A stretch of 34,679 bases of DNA, from the IMG/VR virus record IMGVR_UViG_3300007541_000082, positions 1 through 34,679 of that record. One strand, given 5' to 3'. Below the pieces are notes generated by a model. The model searched no databases and was not told the DNA's origin. It saw nothing but the letters and a program-made list of their open reading frames with translations. This DNA comes from a virus. A program made the position numbers and the translations under genes. Below, piece by piece: positions 1,734-30,263 of the stretch (the stretch's first letter is position 1; every line of letters begins with the position of its first letter).

Positions 1734-1741
1734 CAAAGATA
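1734..1741 (-). promoter_or_regulatory. TATCTTTG -7 promoter box for the fibre unit
   Basis: Reading the minus strand, TATCTTTG occupies 1741-1734, 24 nt before the ATG at 1709. This matches the Bacteroidetes sigma-factor -7 element TAnnTTTG. A TTG lies 13 nt upstream, which is shorter than the usual -33/-7 spacing, so the -33 element is uncertain. Confidence 0.6.
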
Positions 1742-1786
1742 ATTGTAAAAAACTCAAGGTCATTAATGTATTTATTACAAAAGATG

Positions 1787-1794
1787 TATTATTG
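1787..1794 (+). promoter_or_regulatory. Weak -7-like box TATTATTG for the rightward unit
   Basis: TATTATTG differs from TAnnTTTG at one position and ends 4 nt before the ATG at 1799. If used, the transcript would start at or next to the start codon (leaderless). It sits opposite the minus-strand promoter in the divergent region 1710-1798. Confidence 0.35.
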
Positions 1795-1798
1795 CAGT

Positions 1799-2431
1799 AT
1801 GAAAACAACTGATTCGACTCACGAAGACATATTTCAAGATTGGCTCGATGAAGCTATTGCAGCAAATATTGTTACTGTTCAAATCAAGCATCCGTTACCT
1901 CGTTATGAACTTTGCCCTCAAGTTAAAGTACCATACACTAAACACTTGATTACAAAACAGAAAGAGATCACAAGGGAGTTACTTAAACCTTGGACATATA
2001 CGCCCGATTTCATTTTTTATTGGAACTCTAATTACTTAGGTAAATTATTTGTACCTTATAATAAGAGATCAAGTATTGATTCTAAGCACGCCTTCTTTTT
2101 AGCTAATAAGGATGTAACCGGTGCTTATTTCAGCATTGTTGATGTCAAAGCAAGTATCAATCGTTTTGGTAGGCGTGATTCAGATGTAATATTTCCATTG
2201 GCCCAAAAGCAACTGTACAATATCAAAAGACTTTACGTTCAAAAAACAGTTGTAATACCTTTGACAAAAGACGATCCATTTTCTACCTTGCTAGGTGCAA
2301 CTTGGGTTCCTCAAAACTATAAATCAGAACTTTACTATAAGCGAGATTACAAACGTGATGGTGTTGTTTTAAAGCGCGAGGGTGATTGTAAAGTTCCTTG
2401 GGAAATTCGTTCAGTCATCAATTTTATTTGA
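1799..2431 (+). CDS. PD-(D/E)XK-family nuclease, 210 aa
   Basis: The start at ATG 1799 (MKTTDSTHEDIF) is chosen over an in-frame ATG at 1766, which would overlap the divergent promoter region. The core reads as a PD-(D/E)XK fold: 'YTPDFIFYW' with Pro69-Asp70, then 'FSIVDVKAS' with Asp115-x-Lys117, followed by a helix containing 'FPLAQKQLYNIKRL' and a strand 'KTVVIPLT'. The Asp70 / Asp115-x-Lys117 arrangement is the usual metal-binding catalytic set. The C-terminus is basic (Lys/Arg/Tyr rich), suiting DNA contact. Phage enzymes of this superfamily act as Holliday-junction resolvases, recombination nucleases or host-DNA nucleases; the sequence does not say which. It heads the rightward gene block, next to a winged-helix-like gene and upstream of the packaging genes, so resolving branched DNA before packaging is one reasonable inference. 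Confidence 0.65.
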   Translation: MKTTDSTHEDIFQDWLDEAIAANIVTVQIKHPLPRYELCPQVKVPYTKHLITKQKEITRELLKPWTYTPDFIFYWNSNYLGKLFVPYNKRSSIDSKHAFFLANKDVTGAYFSIVDVKASINRFGRRDSDVIFPLAQKQLYNIKRLYVQKTVVIPLTKDDPFSTLLGATWVPQNYKSELYYKRDYKRDGVVLKREGDCKVPWEIRSVINFI

Positions 2432-2447
2432 TTACATTTGCTGTAAT
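2431..2447 (+). promoter_or_regulatory. Promoter box TACATTTG inside an ATTACA/TGTAAT inverted repeat
   Basis: TACATTTG (2433-2440) matches TAnnTTTG and ends 5 nt before the ATG at 2446. It overlaps a perfect 6-bp inverted repeat, ATTACA (2431-2436), 5-nt spacer, TGTAAT (2442-2447), whose right arm runs into the start codon. The arrangement suggests a leaderless promoter with an overlapping operator. Confidence 0.45.
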
Positions 2448-2808
2448 GAAACCTCACATTGTCATAAACTCTAAAGACAAAGAAAGCCAAATCCGGTCTT
2501 TTCTGGATTTGACTAAGGGTTTAACACATTCTCTTACTAAGGCTGAGACAGATTTTGCTGTTGAATTGATAAAAAGGTGCCAAGTTGGAAAACCCCGACT
2601 CAATGATTACCTGACTTATGAGATGCGACGATCTATACAGGAACATCTTGGTATCACAGACATCTATTTTAATACAATGCTGTCTCGCCTTAGAGCTAAA
2701 AATTTCATAATTAAAAATGGTTCTATTCAAGAAATAAACATATTATATACAATAATCAATCAGCAAAGTGTTGATTTGTTAATTCGATTTGATGCAAAAA
2801 AAGATTAA
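2446..2808 (+). CDS. Winged-helix-like DNA-binding protein candidate, 120 aa
   Basis: The start is taken at ATG 2446 (MKPHIVINSKDK), directly after a TACATTTG box, rather than at the in-frame ATG 2398 inside the nuclease gene. The protein is mainly helical: 'SLTKAETDFAVELI' (about 31-44), then 'MRRSIQEHLGITDIYFNTML' (about 59-78) and 'LRAKNFIIKNGSI'. The last stretch has the helix-turn-helix then wing pattern of winged-helix proteins ('LGITDIYFNTMLSRLRAKNFI'-type recognition segment split by a turn). The gene sits between a nuclease and an HU/IHF-like mini-gene. A role in transcription control, genome recognition or packaging initiation is possible. The HTH reading is by eye and I do not recognise a named family. 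Confidence 0.5.
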   Translation: MKPHIVINSKDKESQIRSFLDLTKGLTHSLTKAETDFAVELIKRCQVGKPRLNDYLTYEMRRSIQEHLGITDIYFNTMLSRLRAKNFIIKNGSIQEINILYTIINQQSVDLLIRFDAKKD

Positions 2809-3058
2809 ACGAATAATTGAAGAAACATCTAGTAGTATGGGTATATCAATGACTCATGCTCGACTAATGTATGAAGCACCTTTTAGAAGAATACGAGATA
2901 AAATTCAACAACAACCTGAAATAACAATTGATTCAACAGAAGATGATTTTGATTATTTTGTTTTGAAACATTTTGGTACATTTAGACTTAGTTTGAAAAG
3001 ACTCGAAAACTTAAAGCGTAACTTAATAACAAAGAGCGATGGCGAATCTAAAGAGTAA
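2792..3058 (+). CDS. Small HU/IHF-like protein, 88 aa
   Basis: The start is ATG 2792; a TTG one codon upstream is less likely. It overlaps the preceding stop by 17 nt. The sequence begins with two basic helices ('KKIKRIIEETSSSMGIS', 'THARLMYEAPFRRIRDKIQ'), then a strand carrying 'HFGTFRLSLKRL'. Helix-helix then G/HFGTF is the layout of the first half of HU/IHF family DNA-bending proteins. The long DNA-binding arm and the terminal RNP motif of classic HU are absent, so it is at most a truncated or divergent member. crAss-like phages are known to carry IHF-like genes. Low-complexity Asp/Glu ('STEDDFDYF') precedes the motif. Function is unproven; a nucleoid-like or regulatory DNA-binding role is the best guess. 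Confidence 0.45.
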   Translation: MQKKIKRIIEETSSSMGISMTHARLMYEAPFRRIRDKIQQQPEITIDSTEDDFDYFVLKHFGTFRLSLKRLENLKRNLITKSDGESKE

Positions 3059-3713
3059 AACCCTTCAAAAAAGACTTCAAAAAGGTCAGGGTGCAAGTGA
3101 CACTATTCGTAGTGTTGAAAGTCAATTAGAAAAAATGACCGTTCGTGAAAAGATGAACGATCAAATGCTTCATTTGGCGCAAATGAAATACAATTCAAGT
3201 TTAACAGACAAGTTTATTGTAAACTTGACTGGTCGTTGGATTGGTTTGGAAATTCGTGAACAAGATTATGAAATTCGTCAAGAAGCGAATGCCGATGTAA
3301 CTCGTTTCAATACGGCAATTTTTAAAGTAGCTGCTGTTGGTGCTGAAGTTTTAAATAAAGACATTGTACCCGGTTGTTTTGTTTGGATGAACGAAATTGC
3401 TTTTGGTGGTGCTGCTAAATCTACACCATGGGGTGATAGACAAGGTTTCTTAGTTGTTGAAGAAAACTATGTGATCGGAGTTGTTGATGGTGACTACGAT
3501 ATCCTTCGTCAAGCAACACCCGAATACATTAAAAAATACAAAAAAGAATATCAAGCCAGAATTTTGGAACATCACAATAAACGTCGTGTTGATTTGGGCT
3601 TGGATTCATTTGCTGATTACGACAGTTTGATAGATTTCTTGGAAAATTCTGAAAACAAGAACCAAGTTGAAGCAGCCATGAAACAAGTTGATAAAAAAAT
3701 CAACGATGAATAA
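3039..3713 (+). CDS. Conserved-looking phage protein with GroES (Cpn10)-like domain, 224 aa
   Basis: ATG 3039 overlaps the preceding gene by 20 nt. The N-terminus (1-50) is a charged helix. Residues about 53-155 follow the order of strands seen in co-chaperonin GroES: 'LTDKFIVNL', a loop with charged residues, 'FKVAAVGAEV', 'DIVPGCFVWMNE' (compare the GroES 'v-x-x-GD-x-V' hairpin), then 'GFLVVEENYVIGVVDGD' (compare 'y-x-v-v-x-e-x-dIlavi' at the GroES end). The C-terminal 60 residues are helical and charged. Some tailed phages encode a GroES-like protein (T4 gp31) needed to fold the capsid protein, and this gene lies in the same block as terminase, portal and capsid genes. The similarity is by pattern only. 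If it is not a co-chaperonin, it is an unrecognised small beta-barrel protein. Confidence 0.5.
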   Translation: MANLKSKTLQKRLQKGQGASDTIRSVESQLEKMTVREKMNDQMLHLAQMKYNSSLTDKFIVNLTGRWIGLEIREQDYEIRQEANADVTRFNTAIFKVAAVGAEVLNKDIVPGCFVWMNEIAFGGAAKSTPWGDRQGFLVVEENYVIGVVDGDYDILRQATPEYIKKYKKEYQARILEHHNKRRVDLGLDSFADYDSLIDFLENSENKNQVEAAMKQVDKKINDE

Positions 3714-4296
3714 TGGTTTGTTACTTAGCTATCAGAAGGGTTTAAATTTCTGGGAACTTCATCCTTATTGGAGAAACATCAAAGAAATTGATCGGTTTTA
3801 TCAAAAAGACCGAAGCCAAGAAGATGGTAAAACAACAAGGCACAAAAGCTCACGAATTATGTGGGCTTTATTGCTTATGTATGATATGGGTGTTGATAAT
3901 TTTTATCGACATTTACCTGAAAAAAGGCGTAGAATTGTACTTGCCGAAGAAATAATTCAAGAACCTAAATTTAATTGGTCTGAGTACGAAGATATTGAAA
4001 AAATAATTAAAGAAAGAGCTACTACACCTGCTCAAAGACATTATATAACTTTAATGAAAAAATTAAATGAAAGAGATGAGTTTATTAACAATACACCTTA
4101 TAGTTTAGATCAATATGTTGAAATAAACGGTAAAAACGTATTAGTTAAAGGTACTGCTGATCAATTAGAAAAAATGCTTTCTAGTAGTGATAAAATTTAT
4201 CAAACTTTGGAAACTATTAATAAAAAACTTGAGTTACAAAAAGTAGCTAAGAAAAACGAAAAACTTAAATCCGCAACAGAAGAAGGTTTGATATGA
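3706..4296 (+). CDS. Small terminase subunit candidate, 196 aa
   Basis: ATG 3706 (MNNGLLLSYQKGLNFWEL) is preferred over a TTG at 3688; it overlaps the preceding stop by 8 nt. The stop overlaps the terL start by 4 nt (ATGA). The protein is largely helical, with a basic, aromatic N-terminal part ('HPYWRNIKEIDRFYQKDRS', 'HKSSRIMWALLLMYDMG') and a C-terminal coiled coil ('KIYQTLETINKKLELQKVAK'). Length, helical N-terminus, coiled-coil oligomerisation segment and the slot directly before terL all fit a small terminase, the DNA-recognition part of the packaging motor. No HTH is clear enough to state. The assignment rests mainly on position, and crAss-like small terminases are too divergent for me to confirm by eye. 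Confidence 0.5.
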   Translation: MNNGLLLSYQKGLNFWELHPYWRNIKEIDRFYQKDRSQEDGKTTRHKSSRIMWALLLMYDMGVDNFYRHLPEKRRRIVLAEEIIQEPKFNWSEYEDIEKIIKERATTPAQRHYITLMKKLNERDEFINNTPYSLDQYVEINGKNVLVKGTADQLEKMLSSSDKIYQTLETINKKLELQKVAKKNEKLKSATEEGLI

Positions 4297-6563
4297 TTAA
4301 TAATAGCGAGTTTTTAGTTAAAGAACATCCAAATTTAAATCCGATCACGGAAAAACGTGAGCGTATTGAATATTGGAAAGAACAAAAACGTCGCTGTATG
4401 GAAGGTTACTGGGTAGGTGGTAAATGGATGCCCGGAGAACTTTACACATTTGTAAATATTTGGAACATTAAATTAAATGATCTCAATCGTAAAAACGCAG
4501 GTAAAATTATATCAAGACCTTGGTTGCGTGATCTTGATTGGGAAAAATTTTATATTGCTAGTGAAGCGTTTGGATTTTCTGGTTTTGAAAAAGATTTAAA
4601 AAATACCTGTGATATAAGATATGATCCAAAACTTAAAAATTATCATTTAGCAACTAAGGCAATAACTGAAGAAGAAATTAAATCCAAAAAATACATCCCT
4701 GCTCGTGATTATTTAAGAATGAATCACGGTGTTAATTTAGGTAAACCTTTATACAAAAATCCTGCAAAAAATGTAATTGATATTGAGGCTCGCGGAGGTG
4801 GTAAATCTTATACCGCATCTAGTTTAATATTTCATAATTTTTATTTTGATGGTTCGCATGATTACGATGCTTATATGGAAGCGCGTAAAAAAGGTGAACC
4901 TATGACTTCTGAAACTTTGGTTGGTGCTATTCACGCAATGTATAGTACAGACTTGATTGATAAATTTAAAGATGGTGTTGAATTTTTACCGGGTGGTTAT
5001 GAATACATGGGTGAAAATTATCCAAGCCCATTACTTGTACCAACAGCAGGTAGTTACGATCCCGGTAAAAAAGGCGCTGTTAATTTGTTGTCTAAAAGTA
5101 AACTACATCATAGAACATTTAATGAAAGTCCTTTTGCTGGTAATGGTACTCGACCTTCAAAAGCATTTATTGAAGAAATTGGTCTGTTCTTTAGATTAAT
5201 TGAAACTTTGGGTGCTATGAAAGATACTACTTATAACGGTACTTTCAAATTTGGCACAATTTGGATGTTTGGTACAGGTGGTGCTATGAAGTCTGGTGCA
5301 ACAGCAGCAGCTCAAAAGGTATTTTATAATCCAGAAGAATACGACTGTTTGTATTTTGAAGACATTTGGGAAAAACGTGGGCGTATTGGTTATTTCGTAC
5401 CTGCTGACTTTGCAATCAACGATTTTAAAAAAGGACCAAACTTAATTACAGATTTTGAACTTGCTAACGTAGTTCTTTCAGCAGAAAACGAACGTCTTAA
5501 AAAAGGAAAAGATCAAAAGCCTTATAACGATAACTTACAAAACAGACCTAGAAAACCTTCGGATGCATTCTTGGTAACAGGTGACAATACGTTTCCTGTA
5601 AAAGACCTAGACCTAAATTTAATTAGGATGGCTGAAAATCCAAGAATACTTTCTTCAAACTGGACGGGTTTTGTTGTTTTTGATAAAAATCAACCAAATA
5701 ATATACGATGGAAAAATACAACTGACAAACCTTTTAGAGAATGGCCTCCTGATGCAATAGAAGGCGAATACGGTTGTGTTGAAATTGTAGAACATCCTAA
5801 AAAAATGCGTCAAGGGATACCTTATCCTTTAAGGTATATTGCTGCAGTTGACCCTGTAGATGACGATGGTACGGAAGGGTCGTTGCAAAGCTGTTTGATT
5901 TTTGATTTGTATACAGAAAGAATTGTTGCAGAGTATACCGGTCGCACACCAATTGTAGAAGATTGGTATGAAAATACTCGATTACTACTTATTTATTATG
6001 ATGCTTTGTGTTTGTATGAATCAAACAAAAAAGGGTTTTATGCTCACATGAGAACTAAAAACTCTTTGCATTTACTTGCAAAAATTCCCGGAGTCCTCTC
6101 GAACATGGATATTAGTAATTACGACCCAGAAGGTGAGAACAAACAATACGGAGTACCCGGTACAACAGCGATTAACTTTTTTGGAAGAAAGGTTTATGAT
6201 AGCTGGTTGCGTAGACAAGCTAAAGGTCGTGAAGAAGGTGTAACAAATGCTATGGACATGAACCTGAGGGGTTTAGTTGTTGAAACTAAAAACTATTCTA
6301 AAGACGGTAACTATGATAGAGTGTCGGCTGCCGAAAAATTGTTTATTTTGTATGCCGAATATATGTACATCATGGGTGGTGAGGGAGCTGTTTGGGGCGA
6401 TACGTCTAATTTGGAAATCAAAGAACAACGTAAAACCGAAGAACGAGATGATGTTTACGAAAGGTACTTAAAAAATTTACAGAAGAAAGGATATGTCAAC
6501 CAGTCACAAACAACCGTCGCTTCGCTATACGGGTATACCCCGGCAAACGATTCCTTCGTCTAA
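4293..6563 (+). CDS. terL: Terminase large subunit (packaging ATPase/nuclease), 756 aa
   Basis: This is the motor that drives DNA into the prohead and cuts the concatemer. The ATPase part shows a Walker A-like loop 'EARGGGKS' (165-172) and a Walker B ending in the acidic pair Glu294-Glu295 ('KAFIEEIGLFF'), followed by a plausible coupling motif region ('GTIWMFGTGG'). The C-terminal RNase H-fold nuclease shows 'YIAAVDPVDDDGTEGS' with Asp520 and 'LLIYYDALCLYES' with Asp570 as candidate metal ligands. Length is in line with the large TerL proteins of crAss-like phages. The 4-nt ATGA overlap with the upstream gene supports this start and implies coupled translation. Its last 71 nt also encode the N-terminus of the portal protein. 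No intein or frameshift is visible. Confidence 0.93.
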   Translation: MINNSEFLVKEHPNLNPITEKRERIEYWKEQKRRCMEGYWVGGKWMPGELYTFVNIWNIKLNDLNRKNAGKIISRPWLRDLDWEKFYIASEAFGFSGFEKDLKNTCDIRYDPKLKNYHLATKAITEEEIKSKKYIPARDYLRMNHGVNLGKPLYKNPAKNVIDIEARGGGKSYTASSLIFHNFYFDGSHDYDAYMEARKKGEPMTSETLVGAIHAMYSTDLIDKFKDGVEFLPGGYEYMGENYPSPLLVPTAGSYDPGKKGAVNLLSKSKLHHRTFNESPFAGNGTRPSKAFIEEIGLFFRLIETLGAMKDTTYNGTFKFGTIWMFGTGGAMKSGATAAAQKVFYNPEEYDCLYFEDIWEKRGRIGYFVPADFAINDFKKGPNLITDFELANVVLSAENERLKKGKDQKPYNDNLQNRPRKPSDAFLVTGDNTFPVKDLDLNLIRMAENPRILSSNWTGFVVFDKNQPNNIRWKNTTDKPFREWPPDAIEGEYGCVEIVEHPKKMRQGIPYPLRYIAAVDPVDDDGTEGSLQSCLIFDLYTERIVAEYTGRTPIVEDWYENTRLLLIYYDALCLYESNKKGFYAHMRTKNSLHLLAKIPGVLSNMDISNYDPEGENKQYGVPGTTAINFFGRKVYDSWLRRQAKGREEGVTNAMDMNLRGLVVETKNYSKDGNYDRVSAAEKLFILYAEYMYIMGGEGAVWGDTSNLEIKEQRKTEERDDVYERYLKNLQKKGYVNQSQTTVASLYGYTPANDSFV

Positions 6564-8874
6564 GAAAACTTCTAAGAGTTGGATCGTTAACAACGTAGAA
6601 GCTGTTGATGGAGTAACCGGTCATTTGGCTTCTCGTATAAGAGCGCGGATTCAAAATAAAATCATCAATTTCAAACTTTGGGAAGGCGAGTTAGATGAAA
6701 ATGATATTCTAAATTTAACTGACCCAGATAGAATTTTAGATGGTTCTGCAATCACTAGCTTACAACACCATCCTATTTTAATTAGCAAATTTAACGTATT
6801 AATAGGTGAAGAAGCTCAAAGAAGTTTTTTACCTACTGCTGTTTTGTCCAATCCAACGGCTATTTCTGAAAAAGAAGAAGCCATGGCCCAGCAATTAAAT
6901 GCAAAAATTCTTCAAATATTAAACGACGAAAAAACAAGTGATGAACAAAAAAAGGCTTTGATGGATAAAGAACGTCGTCGATTAAAGACTTCGTTCCAAG
7001 ATCAAAGAGAAATTCGCGCTAATAGAATTATTCGCTATTTGTATCAAAGATTACGATTGGTTAAAAAATTTAATGATGGTTTTAAGAATGCCTTATTATC
7101 TGCTGAAGAAATTTACGACACAGACCCAATAGGTCGTGAACCAAATTTAGAAGTTCTCAATCCGGTAAACGTTATTACCATGATGGATGGAGGTTCTAAT
7201 AATATTGAAGATGCTGATGTAATTGTTGTTTACAACTACAGAAGTATTGGTCAAATTATAGATCGACATTATCATCGTTTAACAAAAAAACAAATTGAAC
7301 ACCTTGAATCAAATAATATTGGATACGATGCTTCAATTCGAGGTAGTGATTTTGTTGGCCCTAGAGAGCCTTATATTTTAGGAACCGCTTTAGAATCTGA
7401 TGATCGAATGATGCACAGTACAATTAATTTGTACGAAGCCTTGGCCGGTCATTCTGGTAATCCGTTTGGACCAACTTTCGATTCAGCAGGTAATATTCGA
7501 GAATTGAAAGTTTGTATTCGTTCTCGTAAAAAAATGCTTAAAGTCATTTATCCAAATCCTACAACGGGTGAAGAAGAGTGTATTTATATGCCTGAGACGT
7601 ACATTGTTGATGAATCAAAAGGTGAAAGCGCTAAAGAAGAATGGATTAATTGGTGGTGGACTTATTACAAGATAGGTGACAATATCTATTTTGGATTTCC
7701 AAACGAAGTTCAATACACACATCTGGGAAATCCAAGTTTGTCTTCTCCAGGGATCATTGGTTGCATTTACAATACGAACGGTGGTCGCGGTGTATCAATG
7801 ATGGATCAAACCAAATCGTACCAATATATGTACAACTTGGTTTGGGATAGATTACGCGATGCATTAAATAGCTGGTGGGGTCCAATTTTGGAGATGGATG
7901 ATTCCAAAAAACCCGACAATTGGAGTTTTGAAAAATGGATGTTTTATGCTCGTAAAATGAAAGTTTTACGGGTTGATTCATTTAATACCAAATCAGAAGG
8001 TATCGGTAAGGGTAAGATGGCCGGTAATTACAATACAACAGGTAGAATGTTGTATTCTGATATTGGTAATTACATTCAACAATTGACCAATATTTTAAGT
8101 TTCATCGAATTACAAGTTGCTATTGTTACCGGTGTAACCAAACAACGAGAAGGTCAAGTAAAAGAGCGCGAAACTGCAAGTGGTGTTCAACAAAGCTTAA
8201 TGCAGTCAACTAGTATTACCGAACCTTTGTTTTTGCAACATGAAGAGGTAAAACTTAGAGTTGTCACACATCTTGTAGAACAAACCAAGTTTCTGTGGAA
8301 AGATAAAAAATTCCAAGCCCAATATGTATTAGATAATGGGTCTTTAGAAATGTTTGATGTTGATGGTGATGAACACGCTGAGTGTAATTATGACATTCAC
8401 ATTACTAATGGTATAGCCGCTAAAAAGCTTGATAATGTTATTGAACAACTAGGTCACGCATCGTTGCAAAACGAAAAAGCAAATTTGGCTACTATTATTG
8501 ATTTGTTTGCTTCTGCAAGTATTGCTGAAAAACGCGCTGTTCTTTTGGCTCACGAAGACGAGATGGCTGAACAAGTGCAAGCTAATCACGAAAGAGCTAA
8601 AGAACTTCAGCAAATGCAAATTGATGCTGAAAAAGAGAAACGTCTTGAACAAAGAATTGATTCTCGTTGGGAAACCATGTACAAAGGTTCTGTTGACATA
8701 GAAAAAGCTTTAATACAAGCTGAAAGTTTCGGTAATGTCGAAAATGATAGAGACATTGATGCTTTGGTTGCAAAACGAAACAAGTTAATGGAAGATATGA
8801 AAGACATGGATGAAAAGTTAAGAAACGCCAATCGAGAGCTTGAAAGAAAAAAATCTCAAACTAAAAGCAAATAA
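6493..8874 (+). CDS. Portal protein, 793 aa
   Basis: The gene directly follows terL and has the size and composition of the large portal proteins of crAss-like podoviruses. The N-terminus contains 'NNVEAVDGVTGHLASRIRAR', then a long alpha/beta body with 'PNLEVLNPVNVITMMDGG', 'WINWWWTYYKIGDNIYFGFP' and 'WDRLRDALNSWWGPILEMD'. Near residues 535-575 lies 'FIELQVAIVTGVTKQREGQV' then 'ETASGVQQSLMQSTS', a portal-typical stretch. The C-terminal 120 residues are a highly charged coiled coil ('ERAKELQQMQIDAEKEKRLE'), consistent with a barrel or internal helical extension. ATG 6493 is preceded by AGAAAGG 4 nt upstream, one of few SD-like sites here. No nearby downstream Met offers an alternative, so the 71-nt overlap with terL appears real. 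The product forms the dodecameric DNA channel at the head vertex. Confidence 0.85.
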   Translation: MSTSHKQPSLRYTGIPRQTIPSSKKTSKSWIVNNVEAVDGVTGHLASRIRARIQNKIINFKLWEGELDENDILNLTDPDRILDGSAITSLQHHPILISKFNVLIGEEAQRSFLPTAVLSNPTAISEKEEAMAQQLNAKILQILNDEKTSDEQKKALMDKERRRLKTSFQDQREIRANRIIRYLYQRLRLVKKFNDGFKNALLSAEEIYDTDPIGREPNLEVLNPVNVITMMDGGSNNIEDADVIVVYNYRSIGQIIDRHYHRLTKKQIEHLESNNIGYDASIRGSDFVGPREPYILGTALESDDRMMHSTINLYEALAGHSGNPFGPTFDSAGNIRELKVCIRSRKKMLKVIYPNPTTGEEECIYMPETYIVDESKGESAKEEWINWWWTYYKIGDNIYFGFPNEVQYTHLGNPSLSSPGIIGCIYNTNGGRGVSMMDQTKSYQYMYNLVWDRLRDALNSWWGPILEMDDSKKPDNWSFEKWMFYARKMKVLRVDSFNTKSEGIGKGKMAGNYNTTGRMLYSDIGNYIQQLTNILSFIELQVAIVTGVTKQREGQVKERETASGVQQSLMQSTSITEPLFLQHEEVKLRVVTHLVEQTKFLWKDKKFQAQYVLDNGSLEMFDVDGDEHAECNYDIHITNGIAAKKLDNVIEQLGHASLQNEKANLATIIDLFASASIAEKRAVLLAHEDEMAEQVQANHERAKELQQMQIDAEKEKRLEQRIDSRWETMYKGSVDIEKALIQAESFGNVENDRDIDALVAKRNKLMEDMKDMDEKLRNANRELERKKSQTKSK

Positions 8875-8876
8875 TC

Positions 8877-9020
8877 ATGGCAAACCGTATTCAAGAAAAA
8901 CTCAAACGAGTTCGTGAATGGCGTAAACAGATTCATTCCAATCCTTTACAGAATATACCGCAAGATTTTGTGAATGATATTCAGATTTCTAAAGCAGGTC
9001 AATCTGAGAAAAAACTGTAA
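8877..9020 (+). CDS. Small basic protein, 47 aa
   Basis: A short ORF starts 2 nt after the portal stop and ends just before the terminator at 9049. It begins MANRIQEKLKRVREWRKQ, a strongly basic amphipathic helix, followed by 'IHSNPLQNIPQDF' and a polar tail. Tight spacing after portal, full use of the gap and its position before a terminator support a real gene. Its function is unknown; the basic helix could bind DNA, the portal or the scaffold. It is too short for homology judgement by eye. Confidence 0.6.
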   Translation: MANRIQEKLKRVREWRKQIHSNPLQNIPQDFVNDIQISKAGQSEKKL

Positions 9021-9048
9021 AGGATTTTAACCAACGTCTATCGAATAC

Positions 9049-9075
9049 ACCTCGCAATTAGCGGGGTTTATTTTT
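9049..9075 (+). terminator. Rho-independent terminator after portal/47-aa gene
   Basis: A 7-bp stem (ACCTCGC / GCGGGGT, one G-U pair; 9049-9055 with 9061-9067) with loop AATTA is followed by a T-rich tract to 9075. It separates the packaging/portal unit from the scaffold-capsid unit. Confidence 0.8.
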
Positions 9076-9076
9076 G
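9069..9076 (+). promoter_or_regulatory. TATTTTTG -7 box embedded in terminator U-tract
   Basis: TATTTTTG fits TAnnTTTG and lies 23 nt before ATG 9100, the same distance seen at the 1709 and 30280 starts. It would restart transcription for the scaffold-capsid unit. The T-run raises the chance of a coincidental match. Confidence 0.5.
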
Positions 9077-9099
9077 TTATGACGATAAATAGACTCACA

Positions 9100-10275
9100 A
9101 TGAACAAACCAAATTTTGACATGAATACCGACATTCAAATAAACCTCGAAGAAGTTCTCGGCGTAGCTGCTGAGAATAACGAGGGTAATATGGATGTCGA
9201 TAACACCAATTCGGCAGGTAACGTTGATAATTTCAATGATTCTAAAATAAACAATCTGTTTGAATCAGAAGAAAAGATTGAGTTACCCGAAGATTTTCAA
9301 TCTGTATTAGGACAAGACAATTCTGGACAAAGTGAGTCGGGGGTTTCCGGGCAAAACGTTGACGATACTAAACTTTTTGAAGTCGTCGCTCAAGAATACG
9401 TCAGCGCCGGAACCCTTAGTCCAGACGATGTGGCAGATGTAATCAAGGACGTTAAAACATTGGGTGATTTTATTACCAAGGTTGAAGAAAAACGCAAAGA
9501 TTCAAAATTAGCGAATCTGAGTGAAGATCAACATAAATATCTTGAAGCTGTTGAATCAGGATACGATCCACAACTTTTCTTGCAAGAAAAAGATTTACGA
9601 GATCGTTACAAATCAATTACTGATGCTCAGTTAGAAAAAACTGATACATCATTAGATCGTCCTCGTAAAGCTTTAGTTGCCGAGCATCTTATTTTGGTAA
9701 AGAATATGTCAAAAGAAGATGCTTTAGAACTCGTAGAAACTTACAATCAAGAAAAACTTATCGAGAAATCAAAAGAAGCTCGTACAAGTTTAGCCGGTTT
9801 TTACGAGCAAAAATGGCAAGCATCTGTCGAAAAAAATCAAGAAGCGCTTTCTCAAAAAGAACAACAAGAACTCGAAAAAGTCAATAAAGTAATTGAAGCT
9901 ATCAATACACAAGAAAAAGTGTTTGGTAATTCAATTAATGACACTATTCGAACCAAAATGCAAGAGTTTGCTACCAAGAATTACGGTACTAAACAGGAAC
10001 CGATAAACTTCTTGCAAAAAGCTTTGAAGGATGATTTTGTAGGTACTACTACTAAATTGTCATATCTCTTGGCTATGACCAACGGTTTGCAAAACATGAA
10101 TGCTTTGGTCAGTAAATCTGCAACCAAGGCTACAGATGCAATCAGTCAATTGATTCAAGGCAACAATAGAAAACGTGCAACTGGTGGAATTGACACAACA
10201 CCAAACAATAATTCTGGAAGTGGTTATTACAAAAACTTGCTTCCAGATATTGAAGCTGCATTAAACGAATTTTAA
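9100..10275 (+). CDS. Scaffolding / capsid-assembly protein candidate, 391 aa
   Basis: I choose ATG 9100 (MNKPNFDMNTDIQ) over ATG 9079, because 9079 lies only 2 nt after the promoter box and would precede the transcript start. The N-terminal 120 residues are acidic and Asn/Gly/Ser rich ('NNEGNMDVDNTNSAGNVDNF'), so probably disordered. Residues about 130-270 are charged helices and coiled coil ('SQKEQQELEKVNKVIEAINT'), and the C-terminus ends 'YYKNLLPDIEAALNEF', a compact helical tail. Acidic disordered N-terminus, coiled-coil centre and short C-terminal helix, placed immediately before the capsid gene, is the classic scaffold layout. The C-terminal helix would be expected to bind capsid subunits. 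No protease motif is visible. The assignment is by architecture and position. Confidence 0.65.
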   Translation: MNKPNFDMNTDIQINLEEVLGVAAENNEGNMDVDNTNSAGNVDNFNDSKINNLFESEEKIELPEDFQSVLGQDNSGQSESGVSGQNVDDTKLFEVVAQEYVSAGTLSPDDVADVIKDVKTLGDFITKVEEKRKDSKLANLSEDQHKYLEAVESGYDPQLFLQEKDLRDRYKSITDAQLEKTDTSLDRPRKALVAEHLILVKNMSKEDALELVETYNQEKLIEKSKEARTSLAGFYEQKWQASVEKNQEALSQKEQQELEKVNKVIEAINTQEKVFGNSINDTIRTKMQEFATKNYGTKQEPINFLQKALKDDFVGTTTKLSYLLAMTNGLQNMNALVSKSATKATDAISQLIQGNNRKRATGGIDTTPNNNSGSGYYKNLLPDIEAALNEF

Positions 10276-10318
10276 TGAAAACTAACACGAAAATTAACCA
10301 AAACCAAAACTACTTACC
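10276..10318 (+). promoter_or_regulatory. A/C-rich, G-poor leader of the capsid gene
   Basis: The 43 nt before the capsid ATG contain only two G residues and repeats of ACCAAAA, with no Shine-Dalgarno site. Such unstructured A-rich leaders favour initiation in Bacteroidetes. A similar G-free leader precedes the gene at 13560. Confidence 0.5.
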
Positions 10319-11800: not shown

Positions 11801-11819
11801 AACTTTTAAACTTTTTGTC

Positions 11820-11850
11820 GTACTATTGTAATTCAAACTCACAATAGTAC
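11820..11850 (+). promoter_or_regulatory. Perfect 10-bp inverted repeat before the 308-aa gene
   Basis: GTACTATTGT (11820-11829) and ACAATAGTAC (11841-11850) are exact reverse complements separated by 11 nt. The right arm ends 4 nt before ATG 11855. There is no U-tract, so it is not a standard terminator. The left arm contains TACTATTG, one mismatch from the TAnnTTTG box. It may be an operator or an RNA hairpin that limits ribosome access after the capsid gene. Confidence 0.6.
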
Positions 11851-11854
11851 AGCG

Positions 11855-14825: not shown

Positions 14826-14848
14826 GGTAAACCTAATCTAAAGCAACG

Positions 14849-14882
14849 ACCCCCTTTTGTCTTAGACATGAGGGGGTTTTTT
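14849..14882 (+). terminator. Strong rho-independent terminator closing the capsid unit
   Basis: The stem ACCCCCT (14849-14855) pairs with AGGGGGT (14871-14877). An inner TGTC-TTA-GACA hairpin is stacked inside it, and a run of six T residues (14877-14882) overlaps the stem's last base. It is immediately followed by a TATCTTTG box. Confidence 0.88.
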
Positions 14883-14883
14883 A

Positions 14884-14891
14884 TATCTTTG
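14884..14891 (+). promoter_or_regulatory. TATCTTTG -7 box for the tailspike unit
   Basis: A perfect TATCTTTG sits 1 nt after the terminator's U-tract and 20 nt before ATG 14912. No good -33 TTG lies at the expected distance. Confidence 0.65.
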
Positions 14892-22027: not shown

Positions 22028-22055
22028 CAGGTGCTAAATCTTTTGATTAAATGAC

Positions 22056-22063
22056 TATCTTTG
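22056..22063 (+). promoter_or_regulatory. TATCTTTG -7 box just upstream of the 211-aa gene
   Basis: The box ends 7 nt before ATG 22071, so a transcript from it would be leaderless or nearly so. A near-repeat, ATCTTTTGAT (22038-22047) and ATCTTTGAT (22057-22065), spaced 19 nt start to start, flanks the region. CAGGT (22029-22033) and ACCTG (22066-22070) form outer inverted arms. Confidence 0.6.
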
Positions 22064-22070
22064 ATACCTG

Positions 22071-22706
22071 ATGAGCGAAAGAACCGACATACTCGCAGTA
22101 GCTTTAGACTCAGCATTCGCAGTAGTCGACAAATCTTCTTATGGTGAATTTGCCATTGAAGATGAGCGAGTTATGTTGAAATTCGCTAACTTTTACGACA
22201 TAAGTGAAAACAGCAGTTGTGACCCCATTTTAAACGTTGAACTAGAATCCTGTACGCAGGATTTTGTTTTTGATGAGCGTTACATTTTTGATGTACAAAC
22301 CATAGAAGACAATCAAACCATGTACAGAGCAGGATACTATACCTTAAAAACAGGTGCTTCAACATATCGTGCTGTACCTAGCACTTATCAAGAAATTGTT
22401 TCAGATATTGAAAGCACAAATCCCGGCAAGTATTTTGAAATTACCGGCGGTCGACCCGCCGCGACTACTCCGGGGGGTATCTCAATTGCACATACGGCTT
22501 CTGATGAAATCGCTTGTCATGTGTTTTTAGTAGCTGCTGGTTTAATTAATGGTGTAAAAGATATTACTGGAACAGCTATGACACCTATAGATCAGGTTTT
22601 TATAAATGTGACAATAAACATTCCTAGCGTAGACACTACATTATGGGACATTTTCTTAATCAATAAGATTATTGCTCCCGGAACCTACAAATACTCAATG
22701 TACTAA
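22071..22706 (+). CDS. Unrecognised tail-fibre-cluster protein, 211 aa
   Basis: This is the first gene after a TATCTTTG box. The protein starts 'MSERTDILAVALDSAFAVVD', an amphipathic helix, followed by 'VMLKFANFYDISENSSCD' and a beta-rich part ('FVFDERYIFDVQTIEDN', 'MYRAGYYTLKTGASTYRAV'). A Gly/Pro/Thr hinge ('GGRPAATTPGG') precedes a hydrophobic stretch 'ACHVFLVAAGLINGVKDI' and a final beta region. The stop overlaps the next start as TAATG, so it is translated with the HxH fibre. It may be a fibre assembly partner or fibre base protein. No family is recognised and no catalytic residues are visible. Confidence 0.65.
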   Translation: MSERTDILAVALDSAFAVVDKSSYGEFAIEDERVMLKFANFYDISENSSCDPILNVELESCTQDFVFDERYIFDVQTIEDNQTMYRAGYYTLKTGASTYRAVPSTYQEIVSDIESTNPGKYFEITGGRPAATTPGGISIAHTASDEIACHVFLVAAGLINGVKDITGTAMTPIDQVFINVTINIPSVDTTLWDIFLINKIIAPGTYKYSMY

Positions 22707-24699: not shown

Positions 24700-25252
24700 A
24701 AGCAAGTTTCACGGTGGCCCTGGTCATCCTCTGAAACGAGATGACAAATACAACGGTATTCCAGAGTATTATCAGGAATATGTCAAAATGTGTAATGATA
24801 GAAATATTGAACCTTTACCTAAATTAGTTTTTAACCGATTCAACAACAAACTACTTTTTAACATTCGACAAGAAATAATTGACGAAGGTTTTGAGTGGGA
24901 GATGCCTCTAAGTGTTGGTAATATTACGGTTTGTAAGTACAAACGTAAACTAACTCGCAGAAAAGATGGCACCTATGCACTACCAGTAAATCCCAGAAAG
25001 ACGGCTGCAGTTAGACGACTTGATCCAAACGCAAAACCAATCTATTACACCAATCAGCATACCGGCGGGTATCAAACAAAAATAGTTTGGTCACGTTTGA
25101 AGAAATCAACCAAGCATTTGTTCTATTATTCTTTCAATAGTTGTAAGCCCTTTAGATACTTACTTTTCAAAACTATAACCGATCAGACTAAGAGAGTGAT
25201 AGATAAATACTTTATCTTTGAGCCTCTACATACATCTGGAGAAATCCAATGA
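24692..25252 (+). CDS. Conserved-looking basic tail-region protein, 186 aa
   Basis: ATG 24692 (MIKSKFHGGPGHPLKRDD) overlaps the previous stop by 8 nt and is preferred over ATG 24644 inside that gene. The protein is very basic. It contains 'EYYQEYVKMCNDRNIEPLPK', 'VFNRFNNKLLFNIRQEIIDE', 'WEMPLSVGNITVCKYKRKLT', 'YTNQHTGGYQTKIVWSRLKK' and 'YYSFNSCKPFRYLLFKTITD'. The 'W-x-x-P-L-x-x-G-x-I-x-x-x-K' strand followed by a Tyr/Trp/Phe-rich region looks like a compact alpha/beta domain. I do not recognise a named function. Its tight packing between ring-like and adaptor genes suggests a virion or assembly role in the tail module, and its charge would suit contact with DNA in the channel. Confidence 0.65.
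   Translation: MIKSKFHGGPGHPLKRDDKYNGIPEYYQEYVKMCNDRNIEPLPKLVFNRFNNKLLFNIRQEIIDEGFEWEMPLSVGNITVCKYKRKLTRRKDGTYALPVNPRKTAAVRRLDPNAKPIYYTNQHTGGYQTKIVWSRLKKSTKHLFYYSFNSCKPFRYLLFKTITDQTKRVIDKYFIFEPLHTSGEIQ
25213..25220 (+). promoter_or_regulatory. Possible internal TATCTTTG promoter
   Basis: A perfect TATCTTTG lies inside the 3' end of the 186-aa gene, 28 nt before ATG 25249. The spacing is close to that of the leadered promoters, but the coding context means it may be chance. Confidence 0.3.
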
Positions 25253-25536
25253 GTGATACAACACTAAAAGCTAGACCCATGAGTGGATACAAAAGCTGGT
25301 CACATTCTGTAAACAACGATACAGAAGACAAGTCAATTCGTGTAAGACAAGTTGAAAACGGTTTTGTAATTGACGTTGATATTTGGAAAAAATCCAATAA
25401 AGATGAATCAATTTGCAAAACTTACATTTCTTCAACAAATCCATTAGAAGGTATTAAAAACGTCAACGAAGCAGATAAACTCGGTTTTGGTAAGCAAGAA
25501 ATCGACCAAATGGAATTTTTCTTAATAAATTCGTAA
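25249..25536 (+). CDS. Small tail-module protein, 95 aa
   Basis: ATG 25249 overlaps the preceding TGA by 4 nt (ATGA). The protein is charged and probably two-layered: N-terminal 'KARPMSGYKSWSHSVNND', strands 'SIRVRQVENGFVIDVDIWKK', then a helix 'DKLGFGKQEIDQMEFFLIN'. No cysteine pairs, signal peptide or membrane segment are present. The gene lies between a basic tail protein and the adaptor gene, with 2 nt to the next start. It is probably a minor structural or assembly factor, but I do not recognise it. Confidence 0.6.
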   Translation: MSDTTLKARPMSGYKSWSHSVNNDTEDKSIRVRQVENGFVIDVDIWKKSNKDESICKTYISSTNPLEGIKNVNEADKLGFGKQEIDQMEFFLINS

Positions 25537-25538
25537 AG

Positions 25539-26294
25539 ATGTCTTTTTCTGGTAGATATACGACTATTGGGGTAGTCCTTGATAAAATTAAAGTTCGTTC
25601 TGGTGCCAGCATTAATGAATCTGATGCAGCAGAATGGATTGCTGATTTGATGTCTACTTTAGCACCTTATTCTATTTTGCACGTTGTTGTTACAGATGGT
25701 AATCCAAACGACAATAATCCACAACCAATAGAAGTTAAAGAATATCGTGCAGAGTTACCTTGCGATATTGTTGAGTTGATGCATATTATTGATTTGAAAA
25801 CTTTCACACAATTAAGAAGTAGTTCATCACCAGCAAAAATTATTAACTTTTCTAAAAATCCAAACTTCAATTATAAATCAATCAATCCTTCTTCAACCGG
25901 TTCACCAGACGCTTATCAGTTGAAAAACGGTTATATTTATACTGATTTTGAAGAAGGTCATTTAGTTTTAGTTTACAGAGCTTGGCCTAGAGATCAAGAC
26001 GGTAACTTTTTAATACCAGCAGATAGACCAGTTATTGATGCATTTGCTTGGCACATACAAGAACAAATTGATTACTTTCTTTGGCGAAGTGGTGAAATAG
26101 CCGATAAGGTTTTTCAAGTAACTCAACAAAACAGTTTGTGGGCTAAAGGTAAAGCTGTGAGTTTCATAAATGCTGAGAGTGATGGTGAAATGTATTCAAC
26201 TACGAATATATGGAGTACACCTCTTAGCAGAGACAACTTCTTTAGAACCGCTTATGCATCAATGGGTAGACAAATTGCAGAGCGCATTCATTAA
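25539..26294 (+). CDS. Head-tail adaptor (P22 gp4 / T7 gp11-type) protein, 251 aa
   Basis: The N-terminal helical part ('YTTIGVVLDKIKVRSGASIN', 'DAAEWIADLMSTLAPYSIL') is followed by a beta domain with 'EYRAELPCDIVELMHIIDL', then 'DAYQLKNGYIYTDFEEGHLV' and 'LVYRAWPRDQDGNFLIPAD', then a helix 'IDAFAWHIQEQIDYFLWRSG'. The series 'Y-x-x-x-LPcDi-x-x-i', 'G-Y-I-x-T-x-F-x-x-G-x-(V/L)-x-(L/V)-x-Y-x-A' and 'D-x-D-G-x-x-x-I-P' is typical of tail tubular A / gp4-like adaptors that sit under the portal ring. Its stop overlaps the start of the tail stabilisation gene (TAATG), matching the adjacency of these two genes in crAss-like genomes. Confidence is good for the class, lower for its exact ring. Confidence 0.75.
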   Translation: MSFSGRYTTIGVVLDKIKVRSGASINESDAAEWIADLMSTLAPYSILHVVVTDGNPNDNNPQPIEVKEYRAELPCDIVELMHIIDLKTFTQLRSSSSPAKIINFSKNPNFNYKSINPSSTGSPDAYQLKNGYIYTDFEEGHLVLVYRAWPRDQDGNFLIPADRPVIDAFAWHIQEQIDYFLWRSGEIADKVFQVTQQNSLWAKGKAVSFINAESDGEMYSTTNIWSTPLSRDNFFRTAYASMGRQIAERIH

Positions 26295-29200
26295 TGGAAA
26301 TCGGTCGTAAAATATACGGTAAACTCAATCGTGATTTATCTAAAGAATTGCACGATGAAAATACCTATTACGACGCTCGTAATATGCGCTCCCTATCTGA
26401 TAATCGTCAGAGTACGGGTGCAATAGCTACTGTTAGAGGTACTGCTTTAAAATTCACAATACCCGACGTATCTATAGCAATTCAAGTTGATCAAGAAGGT
26501 AAACCTGTTGTTGTTTTAAATTATGGTTCTGGTGTTTTGCGATTGTATGGTGAACACTACAATCGAGTATCAACAGCACCACCTCAACAATTTCAGAACA
26601 TTCGTTCTATTGGTAGCGCTGTTGGTAAAAACAGCATTTTTCTTTTAGCAACTGCGGAAACCGGCGAACCCTCGGAGTCATCCATGGGTTCTATTTGGGA
26701 GTACAACACGGCAGAAGATACACTTCGATTATTGTACTTTGATGCTCTAAACATCTCACAGAAGTATCCTGTTGAGATGTATTACAATTACGAAAATCAA
26801 AACGTTGAAAAACTTTATTGGTGGGGTGATCTAAATTTTGTTCGTCACATCAATGTTAGAGAATCTAACTTATCTGAGAAACCTCTTGATTTCTTAGATG
26901 TAGCTCCTTTGATTAATCCTAGTTCTCCAGAGTTAATTCAAACAAATGCTGGTCAAGGTAATTTCAAACCCGGTATAGTTTCATGGGCTTTTAGTTACGT
27001 CAACATTAACGGTGTAGAAACACAAATTTCACCTGAGTCAAATCCCGCCACAGTTCAGGATGCCTCCGGGGGTAAACCACAAGATGAAACAGTTGCTGTA
27101 TCATTTAGTTTGCAAATAGACAATCTTCGTAGTGATTTCGATATGATTCGAATATATCGTATTCATTATACAGATAAGATTGCAGAACCAGTTATTACTC
27201 TTATAAAGCAAGATCAACTTTCATCTACATTTTATTCTTTTGTAGATGATGGAACAGAATTTGTTTCATCTTTCGGATTAACTCAATATTTACTATTAGG
27301 TACAGAACCGTTTAAAAGTAGTACGGGTGCAGTAAAAAATAACCGATTAATTCTCATAGATAACACTTATGAAGATTTTTTAGTCGAATTAGATACTCGT
27401 GCATACGGATTTAATTCTTCTGGTAATATAGCTGAAGTATTTGACAACAACGGTGTTAACTCTTTAATTACACCTTCAAACTGGAATCAATTACCAATTG
27501 ACCATGATTGCATTAATAAGTCAATTAAAGCAGAAACTGATTTTAATACTGATGGTAATGGTTTTGGTGTTGATCCTTTTTATTACAATTTTTATAATTA
27601 TAATACTTCCGGTATTAGAGGTGCTGAGGGTCCATATATTAAAATTACTGAAGTTAATGAATTTTCAATTGAAAAAATACCTCAAAGAGTTCCAAGTGAA
27701 TTAGGTCTTTTTACAAAACCATCTTCCGAAGGTTATAAAAAAGCGACTAATTTTTCATATCAAGGTTTTAAACGAGACGAAACTTATCGTATAGGTATTG
27801 TGTTTTTTAACAAATACGGTCAGCGTAGTTTTGTTTCTTGGATTTGTGATTATCGTATTGGTGATCATAAAATCAATCCTTTAACAAATGATCTTGGTGA
27901 AATATTAGAAGTACATCTTCACATAGAATTAAAAAGTTCTGCCAAAAGTATTTTGGAAGCACAAGGTGTGTACGGTTATCAGTATGTGTTTGTTGAACGA
28001 AATAGTTCTAACAAAACAATCTTGGCTTCTGGTATAGTAGGACCAACAATTTTTAGCATTATTGAAGGTTATGGTGATTTAAATAATAACATACCCCCTT
28101 ATATGGGTATGCTTGGTTCTGTAGATGGAAATCTTTTGAAACAAGGTTCTTATTTACCAAACGGAGACACGAGAGCGATTGGTACAGGTTTTCTCGGTAA
28201 TGAATTAGCTGTATTTGTGCCAACTATATTAGAATTTCGTTCTATTGAACTAAATGAATTTTCACCCACAGATGGTTACTTTAAAATAACAAATGCTCAA
28301 GCTGTAACCAATCACATTTATCGTAGAGCGTATAACACAAGTTCAGGTAATTATTCAACCACAGAAACATGGACTACTGGTAGACCTTATGCTTTTGCAG
28401 ATATTAATGACGATTTACACGTCCAATTAGATTCAATATTTGCTATTAAAAACACATTACCTGAAAGCATAAGTTATCCTCTAATTAAACCGGTTACTAT
28501 TAAATCAAGCTCAAATATTCTTAATTTTCAATCTCTTGATTCTGTAGTTGGTGTGCTTGTAGATAAAGACACAGGTGCTTCACAAAGTATCTCTTCTCGA
28601 ATAGTTAGACCAATACATTCTGGAAAAGATTCTGATGTTTATACTCACGATGTTTTAATATTTGCTTCAAAATCATTAGGTGATCAAATTCAAAGTTATA
28701 TTGTTAATTACTCTAAATTAGGAGTAGATGATTATTTATTGCAAGCTGATTACAAAAGATATTTACCTAATCAATATGGAGGTAACACTTTTGCAGATCG
28801 TTCAAGAAACAAATACATTCCTTGCAGTAGATTTTTCAAAATAAATGAAACAATTTCATCAATACCTTCTATTGAAAACGTATGTCATGGAGATAGTTTC
28901 ACATCTATTCATAACTACTGTCGGTCTGAATTAGCTTTTACAGATATTACTGGTAAATCTGGTCACAGAGATATTTATCAGTACATTTCAGAAAGTATTA
29001 TTGCAGAACCGTTAAGAATGTACTCTGCAATAATTACTCGTAAACCGGGTCAAAAACTAGAAGATTATTACAAGTACAATACAGCTTACGATAGAAAACA
29101 CAATGTTCGTGAGTTTTTTGGTAAACCTCTTGTTTTAAACACAAACCCTAATCGTTTTAACGAGGTAAAGTATTCTGATGCCAAAAGTCCCGGAGAAACC

Positions 29201-30199
29201 TTAGACTCTTGGTTAACCTTCGCCCAACTAAACGTCGGCTATCTTGAGGGTTCATTTGGTAAGCCTACTCGTGCTTTGGTTGGTTCTGGTGATGAACTGT
29301 TCATTTGGCAAGAAAACGCTTACGGGGTGTATGCTATTGAGCCTTCAGTAACCAATGTTGATAGTGTAGGTAATACGGTTTACATTGGTACTGGTCAATT
29401 TTTACATAGCTTCACTTATCTTTCAAAGAAAAGCGGCCTTCAACAAAAATGGGCCATTTCTTCAAGTCCGTATGGTTTTATTTGGTACGATCAACAACGC
29501 AAAGCAATTTTCGGATTAGGTCAAGATCGAAATAGATTAGATGTTGATGGTATTACAACTTATGTAAGAAACCTACCAGTTTTCGGTAATAATCCGCTTT
29601 CTGAAAATAGTGTACTCGCAGGCCATTCGGCAATTCACAACGAAACCTTTTTGTTCTTTGTTCACAACAATACTAAGGAAGCATGGGTTTTCGATCATTT
29701 GAAAAAAGGCTGGTCATATAGAGCAGATGCGGACCCTAGTTTGGTAATTGATTACTACGGTAAAATGTATCTTCAAAAAATGCAGACTGGTCAAGTATAT
29801 GCGTTTGGTGAAGGTAATCCCGGTAGTATGTTGGGTGTATCTTATCCATCGTCGGTAACAGTTATTGTTTCAGACAAACCCGGTATGGTAAAAATATTGG
29901 ATAATTTGTTTTGGAACAGCGAAGTATATCTTGGTCAAAATCATATTCACGACGCAACTTTTGAAAAAATTCGCATTTGGAATGATCATCAAGATACAGG
30001 TTTAATTGATCTAAACTATCCTGACTTGGTACGTTTACTGCGCGAATGGAGATATGTAGTACCTGATGCTGAAAGACTTGAACGCTTTCAAAGTCAATAT
30101 TTTTACATTGAGTTATATACTTCAAATTCAAACAATTATGATTTAATATTACAAAGTTTGAAATATCGGTACAGAGTTCATCCTGTACCATTTATGTAA
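26294..30199 (+). CDS. Tail stabilisation protein (P22 gp10-like, crAss Tstab type), 1301 aa
   Basis: The N-terminus reads 'GRKIYGKLNRDLSKELHDEN' then 'YYDARNMRS' and 'TGAIATVRG'. This is the 'G-x-x-N-x-D...l-x-x-x-e-Y-x-d-A-x-N' opening seen in the large stabilisation proteins of crAss-like phages. Next come Ig- or fibronectin-like parts ('GIVSWAFSYVNINGVETQIS', 'DMIRIYRIHYTDKIAEPVI'), several hundred residues of mixed beta sheet, and a C-terminal beta-propeller-like region ('GSGDELFIWQENAYGVYAIE', 'GHSAIHNETFLFFVHNN', 'KEAWVFDHLKKGWSYRADAD'). The protein is expected to form the hexameric hub or nozzle below the adaptor rings. Its start is coupled to the adaptor gene, and an 80-bp regulatory gap follows it. 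The length is large but usual for this family. Confidence 0.82.
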   Translation: MEIGRKIYGKLNRDLSKELHDENTYYDARNMRSLSDNRQSTGAIATVRGTALKFTIPDVSIAIQVDQEGKPVVVLNYGSGVLRLYGEHYNRVSTAPPQQFQNIRSIGSAVGKNSIFLLATAETGEPSESSMGSIWEYNTAEDTLRLLYFDALNISQKYPVEMYYNYENQNVEKLYWWGDLNFVRHINVRESNLSEKPLDFLDVAPLINPSSPELIQTNAGQGNFKPGIVSWAFSYVNINGVETQISPESNPATVQDASGGKPQDETVAVSFSLQIDNLRSDFDMIRIYRIHYTDKIAEPVITLIKQDQLSSTFYSFVDDGTEFVSSFGLTQYLLLGTEPFKSSTGAVKNNRLILIDNTYEDFLVELDTRAYGFNSSGNIAEVFDNNGVNSLITPSNWNQLPIDHDCINKSIKAETDFNTDGNGFGVDPFYYNFYNYNTSGIRGAEGPYIKITEVNEFSIEKIPQRVPSELGLFTKPSSEGYKKATNFSYQGFKRDETYRIGIVFFNKYGQRSFVSWICDYRIGDHKINPLTNDLGEILEVHLHIELKSSAKSILEAQGVYGYQYVFVERNSSNKTILASGIVGPTIFSIIEGYGDLNNNIPPYMGMLGSVDGNLLKQGSYLPNGDTRAIGTGFLGNELAVFVPTILEFRSIELNEFSPTDGYFKITNAQAVTNHIYRRAYNTSSGNYSTTETWTTGRPYAFADINDDLHVQLDSIFAIKNTLPESISYPLIKPVTIKSSSNILNFQSLDSVVGVLVDKDTGASQSISSRIVRPIHSGKDSDVYTHDVLIFASKSLGDQIQSYIVNYSKLGVDDYLLQADYKRYLPNQYGGNTFADRSRNKYIPCSRFFKINETISSIPSIENVCHGDSFTSIHNYCRSELAFTDITGKSGHRDIYQYISESIIAEPLRMYSAIITRKPGQKLEDYYKYNTAYDRKHNVREFFGKPLVLNTNPNRFNEVKYSDAKSPGETLDSWLTFAQLNVGYLEGSFGKPTRALVGSGDELFIWQENAYGVYAIEPSVTNVDSVGNTVYIGTGQFLHSFTYLSKKSGLQQKWAISSSPYGFIWYDQQRKAIFGLGQDRNRLDVDGITTYVRNLPVFGNNPLSENSVLAGHSAIHNETFLFFVHNNTKEAWVFDHLKKGWSYRADADPSLVIDYYGKMYLQKMQTGQVYAFGEGNPGSMLGVSYPSSVTVIVSDKPGMVKILDNLFWNSEVYLGQNHIHDATFEKIRIWNDHQDTGLIDLNYPDLVRLLREWRYVVPDAERLERFQSQYFYIELYTSNSNNYDLILQSLKYRYRVHPVPFM

Positions 30200-30233
30200 A
30201 TTACCAATTCTGTAATAAACAGCCTTATTGTTT

Positions 30234-30263
30234 TGTAATTTAAAGTGCTATCTTTGAATTACA
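30234..30263 (+). promoter_or_regulatory. TATCTTTG promoter flanked by a 7-bp inverted repeat
   Basis: TATCTTTG (30249-30256) lies 23 nt before ATG 30280. TGTAATT (30234-30240) and AATTACA (30257-30263) are exact inverted arms enclosing it. TGTAAT/ATTACA occurs five times between 30211 and 30290 (30211, 30234, 30258, 30274, 30285). A TTG ending at 30230 sits 18 nt before the box, a reasonable -33 element. Confidence 0.65.

Follow-up and report, generated by a model that had tools for sequence, protein, structure and literature searches.

Promoters read by Bacteroidota sigma-A (sigma-ABfr) are defined by the elements TTTG/TAHHTTTG (PMC6847099, PMC7366714), and in Flavobacterium johnsoniae transcription starts 4-5 nucleotides (nt) after the box (PMC6847099). 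Leaderless mRNAs, described for Bacteria in general (PMC3160421), are a minority both in Bacteroides thetaiotaomicron, where 3.7% of 5' untranslated regions are shorter than 10 nt (PMC7366714), and in Flavobacterium psychrophilum, where they make up 5.5% (PMC9723704). The late genes of crAss-like phages are thought to be transcribed by the host RNA polymerase (PMC10136315). Here, we analyze the promoter boxes of IMG/VR record IMGVR_UViG_3300007541_000082, a linear record of 34,679 bases (the window, meaning the whole stretch analyzed) from a virus of Bacteroidota bacteria, in which -7 boxes of the form TAHHTTTG, or its variant TAHHATTG, lie at two distinct distances from the start codon. With a probability of about 0.8, judging from the sequence, these boxes are ordinary host sigma-A promoters of late crAss-like genes, some of which would yield leaderless mRNA.

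The first-pass annotation of the window had described seven such boxes, with gaps to the start codon of either 4-7 nt (a nuclease gene, a gene for a winged-helix-like protein and a gene for a protein of 211 residues) or 20-24 nt, and all seven are present in the sequence at the positions and gaps given there (Table 1). Over the whole window, TANNTTTG occurs 50 times against 51.95 expected, whereas seven matches lie within 50 nt upstream of the 28 gene starts, where 1.06 are expected; being neither rarer nor commoner than chance window-wide, it is the position of the box that matters. When both box forms are considered, nine matches fall in the same upstream intervals against 1.28 in shuffles, three of them at gaps of 3-7 nt (0.15 expected; p=0.0005) and six at gaps of 15-30 nt (0.49 expected), in keeping with the enrichment of the -7 TAHHTTTG box upstream of gene starts that characterizes Bacteroidota sigma-A promoters. 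An TATCTTTG match at 25213-25220 is probably not a promoter, as it lies inside coding sequence with conserved residues.

The same two distances were recovered in a scan of 85 environmental crAss-like loci (approximately 1.1 Mb, including 80 relatives by the terminase large subunit TerL, the window and Cellulophaga phage phi14:2), from which near-duplicates were removed and for which ten scrambled boxes served as controls. Gaps of 3-6 nt were found 25 times against 3.6 in controls, gaps of 7-14 nt eight times against 5.3, and gaps of 15-30 nt 59 times against 11.8. The distribution is bimodal, with a short-class peak at 4 nt and a trough at 7-14 nt (density at 3-6 versus 7-14 nt, p=7.5e-7), and the short class accounts for 27 of the 112 promoters detected, or about a quarter. 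The excess expected at both distances under the first-pass reading is therefore present in the relatives. A peak at gap 2 in a cruder scan was discarded as a leaderless signal, since many of its sites precede a small gene with a conserved start some 30 nt further downstream.

Both modes also appear in Bacteroidota chromosomes (1.5 Mb from about 30 genomes), where the counts are 21 versus 3.5 at 3-6 nt, 14 versus 7.1 at 7-14 nt and 72 versus 17 at 15-30 nt, indicating that they are features of the phylum's promoter system. The larger leaderless share of the phages relative to these hosts is not significant in either of two tests (p=0.056 and p=0.31). In contrast, the short mode is absent from 64 gut-type crAss-like loci, which present two boxes at 3-6 nt (1.7 expected) and 65 at 15-30 nt (7.6 expected). 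The resulting short-to-long counts of 25:59 in environmental and 2:65 in gut loci differ markedly (p=9e-6), with both labels following the reference terminases that drew each locus in rather than the individual samples, and the contrast probably follows the hosts.

A start 4-5 nt after the box places the first transcribed base of a promoter with a 4-nt gap on the A of the AUG, and the short-class peak is thus located where the published box-to-start distance predicts it. Pyrimidine-purine is the usual initiator context, and a pyrimidine directly precedes the ATG in all 20 phage sites with gaps of 3-4 nt, compared with 52% across gene starts in general (p=2.3e-6) and 53 of the 88 leadered phage sites; the sites with the ATG on the predicted +1 hence display the context expected of leaderless starts. 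The nuclease gene conforms to this pattern (cagt-ATG), with a T before the predicted +1. Taken together, the 4-nt peak and the initiator signature lend good support to the first-pass prediction of leaderless mRNA for the short class. Furthermore, a TTG at a spacer of 18-21 nt (the -33 position) occurs in 10/33 short-class and 28/87 long-class sites (controls, 4 and 5), and this equal frequency points to a single promoter type.

Comparison with syntenic relatives, which share a common gene order and approximately 35-78% protein identity, reveals that the spacing class is kept at every gene compared (Table 1). The short gaps are almost fixed, even upstream of the winged-helix-like gene, where the intervening bases differ, while the long gaps drift between the window and its relatives; this is what would be expected if a short gap must place the transcription start on the AUG. 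In relatives, the nuclease start reads tagc-ATG and the winged-helix-like promoter carries a TTTG 21 nt upstream of its box. The N-termini of the short-class proteins agree with those of their relatives at these ATGs. Chance matches in AT-rich DNA, or true start codons located further downstream, could in principle generate short gaps, as they do in the gap-2 subgroup of other phages, and TANNTTTG does occur at chance level over the window as a whole. This account is nonetheless very improbable, because the excess over scrambled boxes, which already contradicts it for the set as a whole, is joined by the exact conservation of the 4- and 5-nt gaps, the conserved N-termini and the pyrimidine signature.

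The first-pass annotation had further suggested that the spacing might be related to the type or the timing of the genes. At first sight, the window is compatible with a regulatory code in which leaderless genes share a function or a time of expression, being translated for instance under altered initiation late in infection: short gaps occur at the gene that opens the packaging operon, at a gene inside that operon and at the head of the block starting at 22071, none of them capsid or spike units, the class persists in the nearest relatives, and gut phages lack it. Across lineages, however, the same gene changes class. The gene preceding the capsid gene (pre-capsid gene) lies 15-29 nt from its box in the window, phi14:2 and most lineages, 3-6 nt in two separate clades and 10 nt in lineage L026; a TerL tree built with a quick method requires no fewer than two changes. 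Similarly, where the portal gene has a box, the gap is 15-25 nt in most lineages but 6 nt in phi14:2 and L053. Class is therefore not tied to the function of the gene, and we reject the link to gene type. The late region contains promoters of both classes with common elements, and, since the identified genes of the window are all late structural or packaging genes, timing cannot be separated within it. A regulatory code thus appears improbable: of the earlier proposal, the two classes stand, bimodal, nearly devoid of 7-14 nt gaps and retained at orthologues, while the functional or timing code does not.

One clade (L034, L035, L041, L042, L044, L051, L057, L076 and L096) uses TAATATTG for its pre-capsid gene, a box variant resembling the TATTATTG and TACTATTG of the window. 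Promoters of this TAHHATTG subtype may form a class of their own.

We infer the transcription start positions, the polymerase, the mode of translation and the reason for the trough as follows. Host RNA polymerase would read the late genes from Bacteroidota sigma-A boxes, beginning 4-5 nt past the box. In the nuclease and winged-helix-like genes transcription would start at the A of the AUG or at the base preceding it, resulting in leaderless mRNA; the 211-residue gene would have a leader no longer than 2-3 nt (0 nt in relatives), and the remaining window promoters leaders of approximately 16-22 nt. Leaders of about 3-10 nt would be avoided; a plausible reason is that they leave too little room for the 30S subunit to bind upstream and yet are too long for recognition of a 5'-terminal AUG; the trough itself suggests that they are poorly translated. 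Promoter class would then be stable within a lineage, switching rarely, and would alter how translation starts without sorting genes by function.

Several observations weigh against the reading of these boxes as sigma-A promoters with a leaderless subset. Only one of the eight window promoters, the box at 30249, has a TTG at -33 spacing, and the canonical TTG-N19-TANNTTTG arrangement has no match anywhere in the window. The nuclease box (TATTATTG) is off consensus, and in-frame ATGs at 1766 and 1784 precede the nuclease ATG at 1799. The 211-residue gene, with its gap of 7 nt, is a borderline member of the short class, and the winged-helix-like gene lies within an operon, so that leadered readthrough transcripts of it must also exist. 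Moreover, the pyrimidine signature is missing from gap-4 sites in host chromosomes (5/10).

The weak -33 element of the window, together with the virion RNA polymerases that crAss-like phages carry, might indicate that the box is not a plain sigma-A element but serves a phage polymerase, or is the site of a phage factor that redirects the host polymerase. We consider this unlikely, given that the box, the spacing modes and the -33 position all match host promoters and that the virion polymerase has been reported for early genes. A somewhat doubtful but possible alternative is that short gaps mainly save space, as a leaderless promoter of about 12 nt fits between packed genes. In support of compaction, the upstream stop codon is nearer in the short class (median 36.5 versus 65 nt), and the 2433 box lies directly 3' of the nuclease stop codon; yet the difference in distance is marginal (p=0.052), the regions upstream of several short-class promoters are wide or divergent, and relatives from the gut manage without the short class.

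Judging from its predicted proteins, the window is the late portion of an environmental-type crAss-like phage. Its TerL matches that of phi14:2 (33% identity, 91% coverage, 2e-94), phrog_11589, a PHROG family of major head proteins, is matched by its capsid protein (1.5e-98), and the crAss-type TerL, portal and major head protein occur in the order usual for Crassvirales, with portal following TerL in relatives. Gene order runs from a divergent gene at 1709 (minus strand) through the nuclease (1799), the winged-helix-like gene (2446), small genes, TerL (4293), portal (6493), the pre-capsid gene (9100), capsid (10319) and further genes to the 211-residue gene (22071) and the 30280 gene. The 1709-1799 interval constitutes a conserved divergent promoter pair, leadered on one side and leaderless on the other.

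Table 1. Promoter boxes, associated hairpins and genes of the window, with box-to-ATG gaps in the window and its syntenic relatives.
Feature	Position	Strand	ATG	Gap, window (nt)	Gap, relatives (nt)	Remarks
-7 box TATCTTTG	1741-1734	minus	1709	24	18	leadered; predicted leader ~20 nt; TATCTTTG also in relatives
-7 box variant TATTATTG	1787-1794	+	1799	4	4	leaderless spacing; TATTATTG also in relatives
-7 box TACATTTG	2433-2440	+	2446	5	5	leaderless spacing; TATATTTG in relatives
-7 box TATTTTTG	9069-9076	+	9100	23	21	leadered; same layout in relatives
-7 box variant TACTATTG	11821-11828	+	11855	26	23	leadered; overlooked in the first-pass annotation; TATTATTG in relatives
-7 box TATCTTTG	14884-14891	+	14912	20	15	leadered; same layout in relatives
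-7 box TATCTTTG	22056-22063	+	22071	7	4	near-leaderless; predicted leader 2-3 nt; TATATTTG in relatives
-7 box TATCTTTG	30249-30256	+	30280	23	32 (one relative)	leadered; TTG 18 nt upstream; TATCTTTG also in relative
Intrinsic-terminator-like hairpin	9041-9076	+				T tract into -7 box TATTTTTG; same layout in relatives
Intrinsic-terminator-like hairpin	14846-14891	+				T tract into -7 box TATCTTTG; same layout in relatives
PD-(D/E)XK-type nuclease	1799-2431	+	1799			first gene of packaging operon
120-residue protein, winged-helix/MarR-like fold (low confidence)	2446-2808	+	2446			best PDB match E=0.46, not significant
211-residue protein, no function assigned	22071-22706	+	22071			heads next block (to 30199)
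Structural gene with endolysin		+	30280			preceded by box 30249-30256

The nuclease is 66% identical to its relatives and has invariant P69-D70 and D115-V-K117 residues, a motif read from the sequence; it had no significant match in Pfam and PHROG searches, and a Pfam search with the short-class proteins gave no match above the cut-off. The winged-helix-like fold of the 120-residue protein is a low-confidence, unproven model. The 211-residue protein is 54-56% identical to its relatives, and its structure prediction (predicted local distance difference test score, pLDDT, of 30) provided no usable fold. Searches of viral contigs with this protein and the 30280 protein found no relatives directly, and those of the two regions were reached through neighboring genes. 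At 9100, the start codon is assigned by homology, an earlier in-frame ATG at 9079 (2 nt from the box) not being conserved.

Upstream of 9100 and 14912, the folded stretches have predicted energies of -13.5 and -19.9 kcal/mol, respectively, and the T tract of each hairpin forms part of the box or abuts it. Terminator-like hairpins running into the box are also found in loci L004, L053, L067 and L068, and overall precede 8/88 leadered but 0/33 short-class sites. A dyad, TACA[CT]-N7-GTGTA, covers the -33 position in L068 (1524-1540 and 2135-2179) and L070 (2122-2138 and 6019-6035), occurring in L068 twice in tandem, 28 nt apart, and is likely an operator of these phages. In many gut crAss-like loci (L202, L220, L223, L225-L227, L229, L242 and L245-L248), the terminase match extends over approximately 3.2 kb although it covers 735-750 residues, which would fit an insert of about 1 kb in these genes, an intron or similar. 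CrAss-like terminase contigs L098, L100 and L101 come from bins labelled Nitrososphaeraceae, Neisseriaceae and Dependentiae, probably as a result of binning errors.

Within the collection of papers searched, none joined "leaderless" with "crAss-like". The window promoters share with Bacteroidota sigma-A promoters, whose transcription is known to begin 4-5 nt downstream of the box, the -7 box and the two spacing modes of the chromosomes, and differ from them in lying on phage genes and in also using the TAHHATTG variant. As in the leaderless mRNAs of other Bacteria, the box directly precedes the AUG and a 5'-terminal AUG is predicted, here from DNA sequence alone. The box-detected short class comprises about a quarter of promoters in the environmental phages, compared with the few per cent of leaderless transcripts obtained by RNA mapping in hosts. 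Gut crAss-like phages (Asinivirinae, such as Kehishuvirus and Mahstovirus) have the same late-gene box and a main gap of about 20 nt, and differ in having no leaderless class. Bacteroidota ribosomes ignore Shine-Dalgarno sequences, and the avoidance of 7-14 nt distances in environmental crAss-like phages, together with a short mode that Bacteroidota chromosomes have and gut crAss-like phages lack, calls for an explanation in terms of host translation. It is conceivable, though rather unlikely, that the late genes of environmental crAss-like phages are partly under leaderless translational control tied to host ribosomes, a control that was lost from, or never present in, gut lineages, and that promoter class predicts the mode of synthesis of each protein. 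A further comparison is with Cellulophaga phage phi14:2 (Crassvirales, Steigviridae), which has the same box and both gap classes (4, 5, 6, 24 and 29 nt for its TAHHTTTG boxes), with the classes falling on other genes (portal, tail protein). As phi14:2 is cultivable, its genes with 4-6 nt gaps (g070, g093 and g110) offer a sharp, testable prediction of 5' ends located exactly at the AUG.

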